Shown here in pieces: positions 28,723 through 43,448 of a DNA stretch of 48,666 bases (the first letter of the stretch is position 1; each line of letters opens with the position of its first letter). The position numbers and the translations under genes were made by a program. The DNA is from Bacillus niameyensis (GTDB lineage: Bacteria > Bacillota > Bacilli > Bacillales > Bacillaceae_C): NCBI RefSeq assembly GCF_001375535.1, contig NZ_LN831197.1, positions 1,797,321-1,845,986 on the forward strand, read 5' to 3'. The notes below the pieces were generated by a model. The model worked only from the letters and a program-made list of their open reading frames with translations. It was not told the DNA's origin and ran no database searches.

Positions 28723-30186
28723 CTAATTCCCTAATCGTAAATTTTGATCATCTATAACATAAATATAATCTGCTACACGATCAACGAAAGTACGATCATG
28801 TGATACAAGCAGAACAGTGCCTTCGTATCCTTTTAAGAAAGTTTCCAATGCTTCAATACAAAAGACATCTAAAAAATTTGTAGGTTCATCTAAAATTAAC
28901 ACATTATATCTTCCTAGAAACAACTGACATAGTACTAGTCGTATAGCTTCTCCACCACTTAAATTCCGAACATTCTTTTTGAGATCATTTCCTATAAAGC
29001 CCATGGAGTGGAGAACTGAACGGATTTTACTATCGGCATAATCACTATTTTCCTTCATCAATCCTATTACCGTTTTATCTGCAACGAATTGATAATCCAT
29101 CTGTTCATAAGCACCTATGACCGCTTTTGGAGAAATTGTGATCCCCTCACCATATTGCAGTATGTGGCGCAATAACGTCGTTTTACCAGATCCATTCTTT
29201 CCTGTAATCGCAATAATCTTCCCTAAGGGAAATTGAAAGCTCGTTTCTTTTAGGAGAAGCTTTTCTCCTGCTTTTAGCGTTAATCGATCAGCCATAATTG
29301 GAAACTTATTGTGTAACTGGAGAGCATGAGACTGGTGAAAACGAATGATTTTCTCCTCTTTCGGTGCCTCCACCACGTCTAGTTGTTCCACTCTCTGTTC
29401 AATCGCTTTGGCTGCTCGTTGAATGTTCTTTTGACTAGTATCCTTTGACTTCGTCATAAACATCTTATTTGCCTTTGCTCTTGTTTCCTTCTTGGAAATA
29501 CGACCATTTGCCTCTGTTACTTTTGCAGCCTTCTTCATTTTGTCATCAGCGGCTTTCATAAGTCGTGTTTTCTCTTTAACATACTTATCATGCTGTTCCT
29601 GTTGTTGCTTCTTCTGAAGTTCTTTTTGCGCGACATAATCTGAATAATTCCCTGTATATTCCGTAATATGTCCCTCTTCTACTTCCCAAATTTTCGTCAC
29701 CAATTGATCTAATACATATCGATCATGACTGACGAGAATGAGCGCACCGTAGTAGTATGTTAATTCCTCAATAAAAAACTGGATACCCTCTGCGTCTAGA
29801 TGAGTAGTAGGCTCATCAATGAATAAGCCTTCATAGTAGGTCGAGAAAATTTGTGCTAACTTTAATCTTGTTTGCTCACCGCCGCTAAAGTTTTTTATTT
29901 CCGTTTCTGGGATTGACAATTTTCCCCTTAGGTCGTAATCCACATCCTTTTGCGTTGGTGCATTTAATTGATCAAAATAGCCTGTTTCTATAAAACTTCT
30001 GACATATCCTTGATCTGGCTGAATTAAGCCAGCCATTAGTTTTAACAGCGTGCTCTTTCCCGCTCCATTCTTTCCAACAATACCGATCCGATCAAACTGA
30101 TGTACGGCGAGCCGCGGGATGTTTAGAACCATTTTATCTAAAAAAGAAAGTTCAATATTTTCCAATTCAATACATACTTTTTCCAT
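28723..30186 (-). CDS. ABC-F ribosomal protection protein (Msr/VmlR-type)
   Basis: This 487-residue soluble protein has two ATP-binding cassettes and no membrane span. Cassette 1 has Walker A GKNGAGKST, signature FSGGEQTRLKLA and Walker B GLFIDEPTTHLD; cassette 2 has GKNGSGKTT, LSGGEAIRLVL and VLILDEPTNFLD. A long charged linker between them (about 190-280) corresponds to the antibiotic-resistance domain that reaches the peptidyl-transferase centre. Such proteins expel macrolides, lincosamides, streptogramins or pleuromutilins from the ribosome. The ATG at 30184-30186 follows GGAGAAG; an in-frame ATG 189 bp upstream lies in the regulatory leader. A 400-nt attenuator leader precedes it. Confidence 0.92.
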   Translation of the reverse strand: MEKVCIELENIELSFLDKMVLNIPRLAVHQFDRIGIVGKNGAGKSTLLKLMAGLIQPDQGYVRSFIETGYFDQLNAPTQKDVDYDLRGKLSIPETEIKNFSGGEQTRLKLAQIFSTYYEGLFIDEPTTHLDAEGIQFFIEELTYYYGALILVSHDRYVLDQLVTKIWEVEEGHITEYTGNYSDYVAQKELQKKQQQEQHDKYVKEKTRLMKAADDKMKKAAKVTEANGRISKKETRAKANKMFMTKSKDTSQKNIQRAAKAIEQRVEQLDVVEAPKEEKIIRFHQSHALQLHNKFPIMADRLTLKAGEKLLLKETSFQFPLGKIIAITGKNGSGKTTLLRHILQYGEGITISPKAVIGAYEQMDYQFVADKTVIGLMKENSDYADSKIRSVLHSMGFIGNDLKKNVRNLSGGEAIRLVLCQLFLGRYNVLILDEPTNFLDVFCIEALETFLKGYEGTVLLVSHDRTFVDRVADYIYVIDDQNLRLGN

Positions 30187-30210
30187 TGTTTTTCTTCTCC
30201 TTTCCATAAC

Positions 30211-30240
30211 AAAAAAGTCACAAGCGTCTGCCTGTGACTT
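30211..30240 (-). terminator. Attenuator terminator 3 (next to the ABC-F start)
   Basis: Minus-strand AAGTCACA-N10-TGTGACTT followed by TTTT forms a strong intrinsic terminator 25 bp before the ABC-F start codon. It would stop transcription before the gene unless an alternative fold or a stalled ribosome prevents it. Confidence 0.8.
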
Positions 30241-30343
30241 AGAGTAAAGGGAAAGAGCCTGATCCTTATTTTGGAGGCCGCTCAGAGCCGTCAACAAATA
30301 GTCCTCGTTCAGAGAACAAAAAAGGGAAAATAAACAAAAATAA

Positions 30344-30369
30344 AGAAAGGCAGAACGAGCCGCCTTTCT
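30344..30369 (-). terminator. Attenuator terminator-like hairpin 2
   Basis: Minus-strand AGAAAGGC-N10-GCCTTTCT followed by TTATTTTTG is an 8-bp stem with a T-rich tail in the middle of the ABC-F leader. Part of its loop (CTCGTTC) can pair with GAACGAG further downstream. Confidence 0.6.
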
Positions 30370-30454
30370 AAGCATGACATATTTTTACAGAAGAACATCG
30401 CAATATATAAGTATATTGGATGTATCAAATATGAAATGAAGATTATTAAAAAAG

Positions 30455-30494
30455 GACAGACTAATCCCGTTTACTCTGTCTACCAAAAACAGAG
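30455..30494 (-). terminator. Attenuator terminator 1 with competing antiterminator
   Basis: On the minus strand CTCTGT/ACAGAG (30489-30494 with 30474-30479) forms a first hairpin, while GACAGA/TCTGTC (30475-30480 with 30455-30460) followed by six T forms a terminator. Both need the same ACAGA bases, so they are mutually exclusive. It lies just after the leader-peptide stop. Confidence 0.7.
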
Positions 30495-30511
30495 CCTTTG
30501 ACCGTATTCAA

Positions 30512-30556
30512 TTACTGGTTCAAAGTTGGGAAACGTAGTCTCATTGCATGTGTCAT
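30512..30556 (-). CDS. ErmD-like leader peptide controlling the ABC-F gene
   Basis: A 14-codon frame reads MTHAMRLRFPTLNQ. It begins at an ATG preceded by AAGGAGG at 11 nt, just downstream of a consensus promoter. It differs at one residue (Ala4 for Ser) from the ErmD leader peptide as I recall it. There, macrolide-bound ribosomes stall at MTHSMRL because of the following Arg-Leu-Arg (+x+) motif. Stalling would alter folding of the attenuator downstream. The peptide is too short for routine gene callers. Confidence 0.82.
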   Translation of the reverse strand: MTHAMRLRFPTLNQ

Positions 30557-30594
30557 TTTTTAATAATCCTCCTTAATACTATAAATTCAATTTT

Positions 30595-30623
30595 ATTGTA
30601 GACTGTCTGTTCAGAAATGTCAA
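30595..30623 (-). promoter_or_regulatory. Promoter of the ABC-F leader transcript
   Basis: Minus-strand TTGACA (30618-30623), 17-bp spacer and TACAAT (30595-30600). Transcription would start near 30588, giving a leader of about 400 nt before the ABC-F start codon. Confidence 0.82.
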
Positions 30624-30695
30624 AGGGTAGTCACATCAGATTTAAACGAATAATCCCCTGTTATTTCTTAAATAGTTCACTTTTACAAGTTAAAA

Positions 30696-30717
30696 GGAGC
30701 TGTTTAAACAACTCCTA
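30696..30717 (-). terminator. Lipoprotein gene terminator
   Basis: Minus-strand AGGAGTTGTTTAAACAGCTCCT followed by TTTTAAC, about 20 bp past the lipoprotein stop, makes a near-perfect hairpin with a T-tract. Confidence 0.7.
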
Positions 30718-30736
30718 ATTCGGGTTAGTTAGCTTT

Positions 30737-31687
30737 TTACTCTTCTACCACTTTATCATCAAATTTTTGATATGCAAAAGTTGCCATAGATTCTAAGTCA
30801 AAGAGTTGTATACCGCTCTCATCATATCGTTGCAGCTCCATTGGCATTTGCTTACGAAACTCACCTTCGTTAAGCTTTTCACCGTTTTTATATAGGACAT
30901 CATGGTGGAAAGTAAGGGTCCCCCTAATATAGTTCCATTCCCAAGTTCCTTCATACGCATTATCCTTATTTGGGAATTCTCCGTTTCCATAGCCTTCATA
31001 GCTTCCATCTTCATGTAAAACAATACTGACGTTATGTGTTCCATCATCATTTATAAATCCCCAATGACCAACTAATTCTTTGCCCTCTTTAGATACATTG
31101 AGAAGAACACTGTCACGATCAATACCTGCATTCAAGTCCAAATCTTTTAAATCCTGTGAATCGATTGTTCCGTCGCTGCCCTCAACTGGGATTGGATTAT
31201 CAATTGAGAGTAAACGGAACGAATAATTCCAGTAATCCTGCCCTTTTTGAAGATGTTCTAAAGCTTTCTTATCGATTTCTCCATCCCTTTTATAAGTGGC
31301 TTCTTCAAATAGATCCATTCCTTTATGATACTCATTCAAAGCTATCGAAATTGCTTCACCCATTTCTTTATTCTCATCTGGAGGAGCAATTGTGCCAAAT
31401 TCATTCAAAACTTCGCGAATTGCATTGATTTTTTCAATGGATTGCTTAGTCCATTCTTTATCGTTATTATTCGCACTTTGCCGAACTTCCCCAAATGCTT
31501 GAATAGCTGTAGTAAATTCCGAACGTAACCTTACTGCTTCTTCTGTATAATCGTCAAATGTTAATTGTTTTATATTATCCTCTTGCTTAGATGCTTTAGA
31601 TCCATCACTTTTATTTGTGTTAGTACATCCACTCATTAATGCAATCAGAATAATGAATCCAATCATCCATTTCCCTTTTGCGACCAT
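30737..31687 (-). CDS. Hypothetical lipoprotein
   Basis: This 316-residue protein has a signal peptide with lipobox ALMSGC (Cys20 of this start) and a Lys/Ser/Asp-rich linker. A helical domain follows (about 40-180) with mixed charge, and then a beta-rich C-terminal domain with VGHWGFINDDGTHNVSIVLHEDGSYEGYG. This pattern suggests a lipocalin-like barrel, as in extracytoplasmic DUF-type proteins. No family is assigned with confidence. The ATG at 31685-31687 is chosen for GGAG at 8 nt and a normal signal peptide. A degenerate insertion element lies about 175 bp upstream. Confidence 0.72.
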   Translation of the reverse strand: MVAKGKWMIGFIILIALMSGCTNTNKSDGSKASKQEDNIKQLTFDDYTEEAVRLRSEFTTAIQAFGEVRQSANNNDKEWTKQSIEKINAIREVLNEFGTIAPPDENKEMGEAISIALNEYHKGMDLFEEATYKRDGEIDKKALEHLQKGQDYWNYSFRLLSIDNPIPVEGSDGTIDSQDLKDLDLNAGIDRDSVLLNVSKEGKELVGHWGFINDDGTHNVSIVLHEDGSYEGYGNGEFPNKDNAYEGTWEWNYIRGTLTFHHDVLYKNGEKLNEGEFRKQMPMELQRYDESGIQLFDLESMATFAYQKFDDKVVEE

Positions 31688-32155: not shown

Positions 32156-32219
32156 TAAGATAGTCTTTTGCACATGTACTTAAGTTTGTTATTCATTCAA
32201 TGAAATTTTGTTCTTAATT

Positions 32220-32576
32220 TCATTAGCTTGTAGTACAAAAAATACGTGTAAAAGCCCATGCTCTACTGCCGAATACGGAAGAACATTCCATACTTTTAGG
32301 AAAGATATTCTTCGACTTTTTACTAAGACTCCTAGAACTTCTAAAAAGTGGAAGCTCCTCATTTATAAAGGAAGAACATCGGTAGAACGTTCTAACAAAC
32401 GAGAAAAAGTCGATTATCACTTAGAATTTGGACGGCATCGCTCTACAAAGATGTGGTACATACGGACTTACACCATTATGATGTGCCAACACATTGATGC
32501 CTGGTATACCAATCAAAAAGATGAACTATCCTTCCTTAACGGTCAAATTTTATCTTCAATGGCCCAATCTTTTTAA
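32220..32576 (+). pseudogene. C-terminal fragment of a DDE transposase, copy 1
   Basis: About 118 codons survive, ending FLNGQILSSMAQSF. The stretch YKGRTSVERSNKREK fits the Y-x2-R-x3-E-x6-K signature of IS4-superfamily transposases and supplies the third catalytic acid (Glu). The N-terminal part with the two catalytic Asp is absent. Compared with copy 2, about 40 bp at the left edge is lost. Confidence 0.75.
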
Positions 32577-43043: not shown

Positions 43044-43448
43044 ATGAAACCAAACGGATATGACAAATCGCAAAATAGGCAAAAATGGCGTTGTCCATTA
43101 GCTTGTGGTACAAAAAATACGTGTAAAAGCCCTTGTTCTACAGCCAAATACGGAAGAACATTCCATACTTTTGGGAAAGACAATCTTCGACTTTTTACTA
43201 AGACTCCTAGAACATCCGAAAAATGGAAGATCGTTTATAAAAGAAGAACATCGGTAGAACGTTCAAACAAACGAGAAAAAGTCGATTATCACTTAGAATC
43301 TGGTCGGCATCGGCCTACAAAGATGTGGTATATACGGACTTACGCCATTATGATGTGTCAACACATTGATGCCTGGTATGCCCATCAAAAAGATGCGCTA
43401 TCCTTCCTTAACGGTCATATTTTATCTTCAATAGCCAAATCTTTTTAA
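43044..43448 (+). pseudogene. C-terminal fragment of a DDE transposase, copy 2
   Basis: 134 codons, from KPNGYDKSQNRQKWRCPLAC to the stop after ILSSIAKSF. YKRRTSVERSNKREK fits the IS4-superfamily YREK signature. The upstream catalytic part is missing: the GC-rich repeat abuts the fragment. It is very similar to copy 1, with few substitutions and mostly conservative ones. Confidence 0.78.

Follow-up and report, generated by a model that had tools for sequence, protein, structure and literature searches.

A putative macrolide-responsive attenuator RNA in front of an Msr ABC-F gene of Bacillus niameyensis is shared with other families of resistance genes

Descriptions of inducible macrolide resistance usually deal with one gene at a time. 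The window, i.e., the whole stretch of 48,666 nucleotides of Bacillus niameyensis DNA analysed here (from a genome of 4.68 Mb), carries on its minus strand an ABC-F ribosomal protection gene preceded by a long leader, and this locus raises the question of whether the leader is a drug-sensing attenuator, how it would operate, and whether it belongs to this gene only or to a broader set of genes. The features of the locus are collected in Table 1.

Table 1. Features of the ABC-F locus and of its leader RNA (window coordinates).
Feature	Coordinates	Strand	Basis
Msr-family ABC-F ribosomal protection gene, 487 aa	28723..30186	-	NCBIfam ABCF_Msr_all
T3 terminator-like hairpin, T-rich tail	30215..30240	-	scan; still folds with leader masked
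T2 terminator-like hairpin, T-rich tail	30344..30369	-	scan; still folds with leader masked
Attenuator element (model R1)	30434..30574	-	141 nt; cmsearch 167.3 bits, E 2.4e-36 (R1 was built from 91 rows, the window copy among them)
P1 3' arm, T1 U-tract and tail TTTTTTAATAATC	30441..30453	-	covariation in A1 and A2
P2 3' arm AGTCT, T1 base	30458..30462	-	A2 covariation analysis; folds
P5 hairpin GCTCTG...CAGAGT	30473..30495	-	98.5% of cells paired; double changes in 5/6 pairs
P4 hairpin CTTTGA...TCAAAG around leader stop codon	30496..30525	-	6/6 pairs with double changes
Leader frame MTHAMRLRFPTLNQ and stop	30512..30556	-	translation; conserved
P2 5' arm AGACT, codons 6-7	30537..30541	-	95.9% of A2 cells paired
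P1 5' arm, SD end and spacer GATTATTAAAAAA	30556..30568	-	covariation in A1 and A2
Leader SD AAGGAGG	30568..30574	-	sequence; SD kept in 91 relatives
Promoter-like site TTGACA-17-TACAAT	30595..30623	-	consensus scan, 11/12 matches

The product of the gene belongs to the Msr family, since it scores 754.4 bits against ABCF_Msr_all (curated cut-off 680); its nearest solved chain, 5zlu_EE, is named macrolide efflux protein. The start of the gene was placed at 30186, and the profile match begins at residue 1 of this start. The frame is open for 63 further codons upstream (ATG 30375), running through T2 and T3; in the region from T1 to the gene, an SD-like stretch stands ahead of two starts only, TTG 30297 and TTG 30294, both in the frame of the gene. 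Upstream, the ATG at 30556 opens 14 codons that end at the stop codon 30514-30512, so that a leader of the MTHxMRLR type, as in the erm(K)/erm(D) attenuators, stands behind the SD AAGGAGG. The preliminary description, which had proposed an ErmD-type leader with its ribosome site ahead of an ABC-F gene, was correct on these points. The promoter that it reported is present as a box with 11 of 12 matches; however, one site of this kind was found against a mean of 2.4 in shuffled sequences, and therefore the box alone is not significant. On the plus strand, two similar unexplained frames (32208-32576 and 43044-43448) with common stretches such as VERSNKREKVDYHLE are perhaps copies of a repeat.

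The likeness to ErmD had been claimed for the peptide, and it was found to extend over the whole RNA. A degenerate MTHxMRLRF pattern was searched in 84,980 species, each represented by one genome; it matched 103 stretches, of which 90 have the 3' half of the element. The other 13 include nine outside Bacillales that lack the element (chance matches), two that were cut by the end of the locus and in which the element was confirmed afterwards (L091 and L099), a diverged Ureibacillus copy with MRLS (L032) and a Peribacillus leader without the 3' half (L097). The window and the 90 leaders form the 91-row alignment A1, whose mean column identity is 84% with the non-coding parts counted, including the SD GGAGGATTATTAAAAAATG and the tail TTTTTTAATAATCTTC. 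Two of its rows (L104 and L115) are erm(K)/erm(D) leaders of the Bacillus licheniformis group, with the same RNA element, and hence the homology with these leaders spans both leader and terminator.

Nevertheless, a resemblance confined to the peptide does occur. One mef(A)-msr(D) region (L376, the one region scanned) encodes MTASMRLR and gave no match to the element at E 0.01, and according to PMC4335068 the leader regions of mef(E) and erm(K) are not recognizably homologous. Convergence, with a peptide common to ErmD and the window and an RNA that is not, is however refuted for the window and has next to no probability: the window aligns with the erm leaders across 140 nt, non-coding parts counted, and leaders ahead of different gene families may differ as little as those of two Robertmurraya species, where an MFS leader (L078) and an ABC-F leader (L050) are distinguished by 2 of 118 nt.

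The fold of the 404-nt leader has an energy of -117.7 kcal/mol (z -7.18), better than 100 of 100 shuffles. Apart from the helices in Table 1, the conserved element has P1b (GACA/UGUC) and P3 (UCCC/GGGA). In A1, 97.3% of 3317 cells pair and double changes occur in 12 cells of six pairs (shuffled mean 1.8 cells); slid versions of the alignment show 39-50% pairing, yet up to 7 pairs with double changes, so the covariation of A1 is weak on its own. RNAalifold recovered P2 to P5 from A1, and P1 was absent from its structure. A second alignment, A2, holds 100 more divergent elements (loci L185-L284), of which 99 are not rows of the covariance model R1 built from the 91 leaders, whereas L189 is identical to one row; their median distance to the nearest model row is 36 of about 137. 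Here, 90.8% of 3466 cells are paired, and double changes are seen in 385 cells, spread over 32 of the 37 pairs; the shuffled mean is 138 cells, and slid versions have 41-122. The alignment of A2 to R1 favours this result. For P3, no more than 66% of the A2 cells are paired, and double changes are scarce in P2. These data support the fold, including the P1 helix, in which the ribosome site of the leader itself is sequestered. Since P1 is nearly palindromic, R1 also gives a weak match of 31 bits on the opposite strand (30435-30575).

The pairings of P1 and P2 are absent from the preliminary description, where another set of shared bases had been proposed as the antiterminator/terminator pair. 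In the window, ACAGAG can indeed pair with CTCTGT, or partly with TCTGT, so that P5 as the antiterminator and a small ACAGA/TCTGT hairpin directly before the U-tract as the terminator are both possible structures; moreover, CAGA/UCUG is complementary in 96.7% of the A2 cells. Against this arrangement, which we consider unlikely, CAGA/UCUG has no double change in 394 A2 cells, which is the shuffled level, while P5 covaries; the small hairpin forms in none of the predicted structures, whether or not a ribosome is masked, and nothing was found that would open P5.

The codons of the leader agree with what the P2-based structure asks of them. Among the A1 leaders, Arg6 is AGA in 90 of 91 and Arg8 is CGN in as many, and Leu7 is CTN and Leu12 TTG in 88 each, an agreement to which shared descent may add. 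P2 has a mean probability of 0.81 in 90 ribosome-free leaders (one was skipped) and of 0.98 in the window, folded to the U-tract. When a ribosome is masked at codon 7, the best energy of the window changes from -34.1 to -20.8 kcal/mol, P2 being abolished by construction; with the ribosome at the stop codon, the mean probability of P2 is 0.03.

The analysis confirms that the leader in front of the Msr ABC-F gene belongs, as a conserved member, to the erm(K)-type attenuators. Very probably, the element controls this chromosomal gene by transcription attenuation of the erm(K)/erm(D) type, operated by ribosomes and induced by macrolides. We infer the stalling, the termination, the inducers and the timing from the sequence, the homology with erm, the conserved and covarying pairs and the codon bias, as follows. 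In the absence of drug, once no ribosome is left on the leader, codons 2-3 and 6-7 would pair with AGUCUGUC, immediately upstream of the U-tract; this pairing would enclose P4 and P5, and T1 would thereby be closed. Soon after, P1 would conceal the SD of the leader, as proposed for tlrB, and consequently only ribosomes that initiate during transcription could take part in sensing. A macrolide-bound ribosome would stall at Arg-Leu-Arg and occupy the codons that form the base of the terminator, so that RNA polymerase would read through. Since P2 is likewise lost when the ribosome stands at the stop codon, the off state would require ribosome release or untranslated RNA, which places the decision in the timing.

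Terminators thus lie between leader and gene, T1 being recognized by fold and covariation and T2 and T3, the two further hairpins that had been reported before the ABC-F start, by the scan; the attenuator anatomy proposed earlier is therefore present. Six terminator-like hairpins were found at 30000-30900, both strands, against 0.7 in shuffles. T2 and T3 would lower leakage; the proposed mechanism accounts for read-through at T1. The idea that such stacking is unusual did not hold: at least one further terminator-like hairpin lies between T1 and the gene in 282 of 294 elements, and at least two in 163 of 294 (54 of 86 for the ABC-F copies), with family means of 1.25-2.23 after T1 against 0.14-0.27 in shuffles (purpose-made scanner, five shuffles each; 9 of 303 labelled loci were dropped because the region was short).

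This abundance of terminators also bears on the view that control is mainly translational, P1 and a sequestered gene SD setting expression while T1 ends little transcription. P1 has been remade with other letters in divergent copies, e.g., before HflX genes with a weak U-tract; the SD region of the ABC-F gene is paired in the window fold; and both layers are combined in vmlR and tlrB (PMC9226507, PMC6851288). The SD that is hidden by P1 is, however, that of the leader and not that of the gene, and in addition to the further terminators, U-rich T1 tails are common in the ABC-F, RlmA-type and MFS copies. Mainly translational control is therefore rated as quite unlikely, and transcription attenuation remains the preferred reading.

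How far the element extends was established with R1. It was detected in 26 of 34 genomes of the GTDB family of the window (E 0.001), in 125 of 397 Bacillales genomes (E 1e-5) and in 69 of 398 genomes of the class, these samples overlapping. Client genes were read in 232 model-found loci, to which the order search contributed 134 copies from 116 genomes, and in the 90 pattern-found loci; these loci are not every match and include some species twice. In the model-found set, 222 of 232 loci precede one of seven gene families, the first family downstream being ABC-F (50), Mph (48), Mef-like MFS (41), Erm (36), HflX (30), RlmA-type methyltransferase (13) or LmrB-like MFS (4), and none in 10. For the pattern-found loci the first family is ABC-F (36), RlmA-type (19), MFS (14), Erm (12) or none (9); longer stretches revealed a client for eight of these nine, which are counted with the model-found loci. 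Client names come from NCBIfam scans of representatives: those of Msr, Erm and HflX pass the curated cut-offs; those of Mph, Mef-like and RlmA-type have their best match to these models, below the cut-offs; and for the LmrB-like protein, the general EmrB model is the only one passed. Two proteins labelled ABC-F (L161 and L280) look like distant ABC-F proteins and not Msr. At the Rfam 15 gathering score, the window gave only 16S rRNA, and ten loci spanning all seven client types gave no family.

In the HflX-type copies L150, L151 and L154-L156, P1 is remade (GGGTTTCC/GGAAACC), the start is GTG and the U-tract is short, so that T1 may be weak there.

These comparisons strongly support a single RNA switch serving at least seven resistance families, the ABC-F gene of the window being one client among many; with this switch the bacteria would probably sense macrolide antibiotics. 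Leaders group by client, yet they switch often. In a FastTree tree of 285 leaders there are 81 changes of client family, against a shuffled mean of 176 and a minimum of 165, a number inflated by the shortness and poor resolution of the tree; for 102 of the 285, no leader of the same family is closer than the nearest one from another family. At least 39 loci (42 rows less three split genes) have two different client families behind one leader, a lower bound because many loci are short, the commonest pairs being RlmA-type then ABC-F (21) and MFS then ABC-F (10). Much of this switching may come from genes being gained and lost behind one and the same leader. In two loci, a short piece of an ABC-F gene (110 aa, L213) or of an RlmA-type gene (94 aa, L309) lies between the leader and the next client, as if one client had been lost under a retained leader.

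Genomes may also hold more than one copy: in 16 of the 18 order-search genomes with two fetched copies, these precede different families. The genome of the window has a second copy outside the window (G000:C6:1573028-1573160), ahead of a Mef-like MFS gene, whose leader reads MIPRLWSLTLNQ; it has lost the R-x-R and kept the P2 arm, and has either decayed or been tuned to another drug. This second copy, and the rarity within the genus of an Msr more than 60% identical to that of the window (3 of 16 genomes), would fit a leader that came along with its gene as a relic that does not work here. Such a relic is improbable in view of the consensus SD, the peptide and the pairs that the window copy retains, together with the promoter-like box.

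Mobility is apparent from blastn of 30187-30640, which matched 25 plasmid records; in phage records no leader match was found. Among the records examined, in pBEH5 of Priestia filamentosa the leader is followed by a putative RNA methyltransferase and then Msr, and in pFN9B of Lysinibacillus capsici by mef(F)-msr(G). The client is a macrolide phosphotransferase in plasmid records of Planococcus maritimus and Priestia megaterium, mphN in Exiguobacterium arabatum, and msr(G), behind the leader MTYSMRLRCTVLNQ, in a plasmid record deposited as Stenotrophomonas rhizophila. In plasmids of Acinetobacter variabilis and Latilactobacillus curvatus, a short-chain dehydrogenase lies downstream.

The copies on these two plasmids (L371, 2477-2594, and L372, 2473-2590) are diverged, as is one in a further genome (L277, 151-272) that likewise stands before a short-chain dehydrogenase (Pfam adh_short). 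The leaders of the two plasmids, read by eye as MIDILTLNR, have neither the R-x-R nor the P2 arm, and it is possible that the dehydrogenase is an unknown resistance gene with another inducer.

Taken together, a single homologous and mobile RNA device is likely to sense macrolides on behalf of at least seven unrelated resistance mechanisms in Bacilli, and in the Stenotrophomonas plasmid record it precedes msr(G). On this reading, genes have been exchanged under a fixed switch, two switches in a genome can stand before different mechanisms, and the switch could serve to fish out new resistance genes, for which the short-chain dehydrogenase is an example. The same RNA part precedes genes for methyltransferases, ribosome protection, efflux, drug phosphorylation and ribosome splitting; provided that the proposed mechanism holds, it would form a cis-regulon in which one signal calls up several defences. 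A single model, with a hidden ribosome site and stalling codons that double as a terminator arm, could then be tested once and carried over to the family, and the switch in front would offer a route to resistance genes not yet known.

Several parts of this picture are already known from the literature. Transcriptional attenuation has been described for erm(K), whose leader peptide, printed as MTHAMRLRFPTLNQ in PMC4335068, is identical to that of the window, and arrest of ErmDL occurs at Arg6-Leu7-Arg8 (PMC8298421); the client of erm(K)/erm(D) is a 23S rRNA methyltransferase, whereas that of the window is an Msr ABC-F protein. That the leader serves another mechanism, as the preliminary description stressed, is true here but less new than it appeared, given that Table 3 of PMC4335068 places MRLR-type leaders before msr(A), msr(C) and mef-msr(D). 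The same paper gives the leaders MTASMRLK for msr(A), MTASMKLRFELLNNN for msr(C) and MTASMRLR for mef genes, and reports mef attenuation; ermK and mef/msr attenuators are also named in a review (PMC5418344). With mef(A)/msr(D), msr(A) and msr(C), the window shares the short MRLR-type peptide, the client families and, as proposed here, macrolide induction (PMC4335068, PMC10314930).

In Listeria, rli80/hflXr has a 14-aa RLR frame through which hflXr is attenuated (PMC6310831), and uORFC-6-1, with 51 representatives mostly from Bacillales, lies primarily before hflX with a conserved RLR (PMC8632094). Both share with our element the RLR frame in a structured leader, and uORFC-6-1 also the order; judged by its published description, it is probably the same RNA as our HflX-type copies. 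The description of uORFC-6-1 concerns mainly hflX and only structure downstream of the start codon; the present analysis adds the P1 helix spanning the SD, together with six further client families.

In B. subtilis, tlrB (yxjB) shares the principle of an R-x-R stall that masks the base of a terminator, an RlmA-type client and a later structure that can close the leader SD; its peptide, MIIQFIRYR, is different and specific to tylosin (PMC6851288). Likewise, vmlR is an ABC-F gene under stalling-dependent attenuation with SD sequestration, but its tripeptide is MIN and its inducers are of the lincomycin type (PMC9226507). In searches of the open-licence literature, no title or abstract united these leaders as one RNA family, and neither did passages of PMC11109978 and PMC9927578. 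Compared with these systems as described there, the locus in the window is itself of a known type, and what has no counterpart in the literature searched is the sharing of one switch across the whole family.
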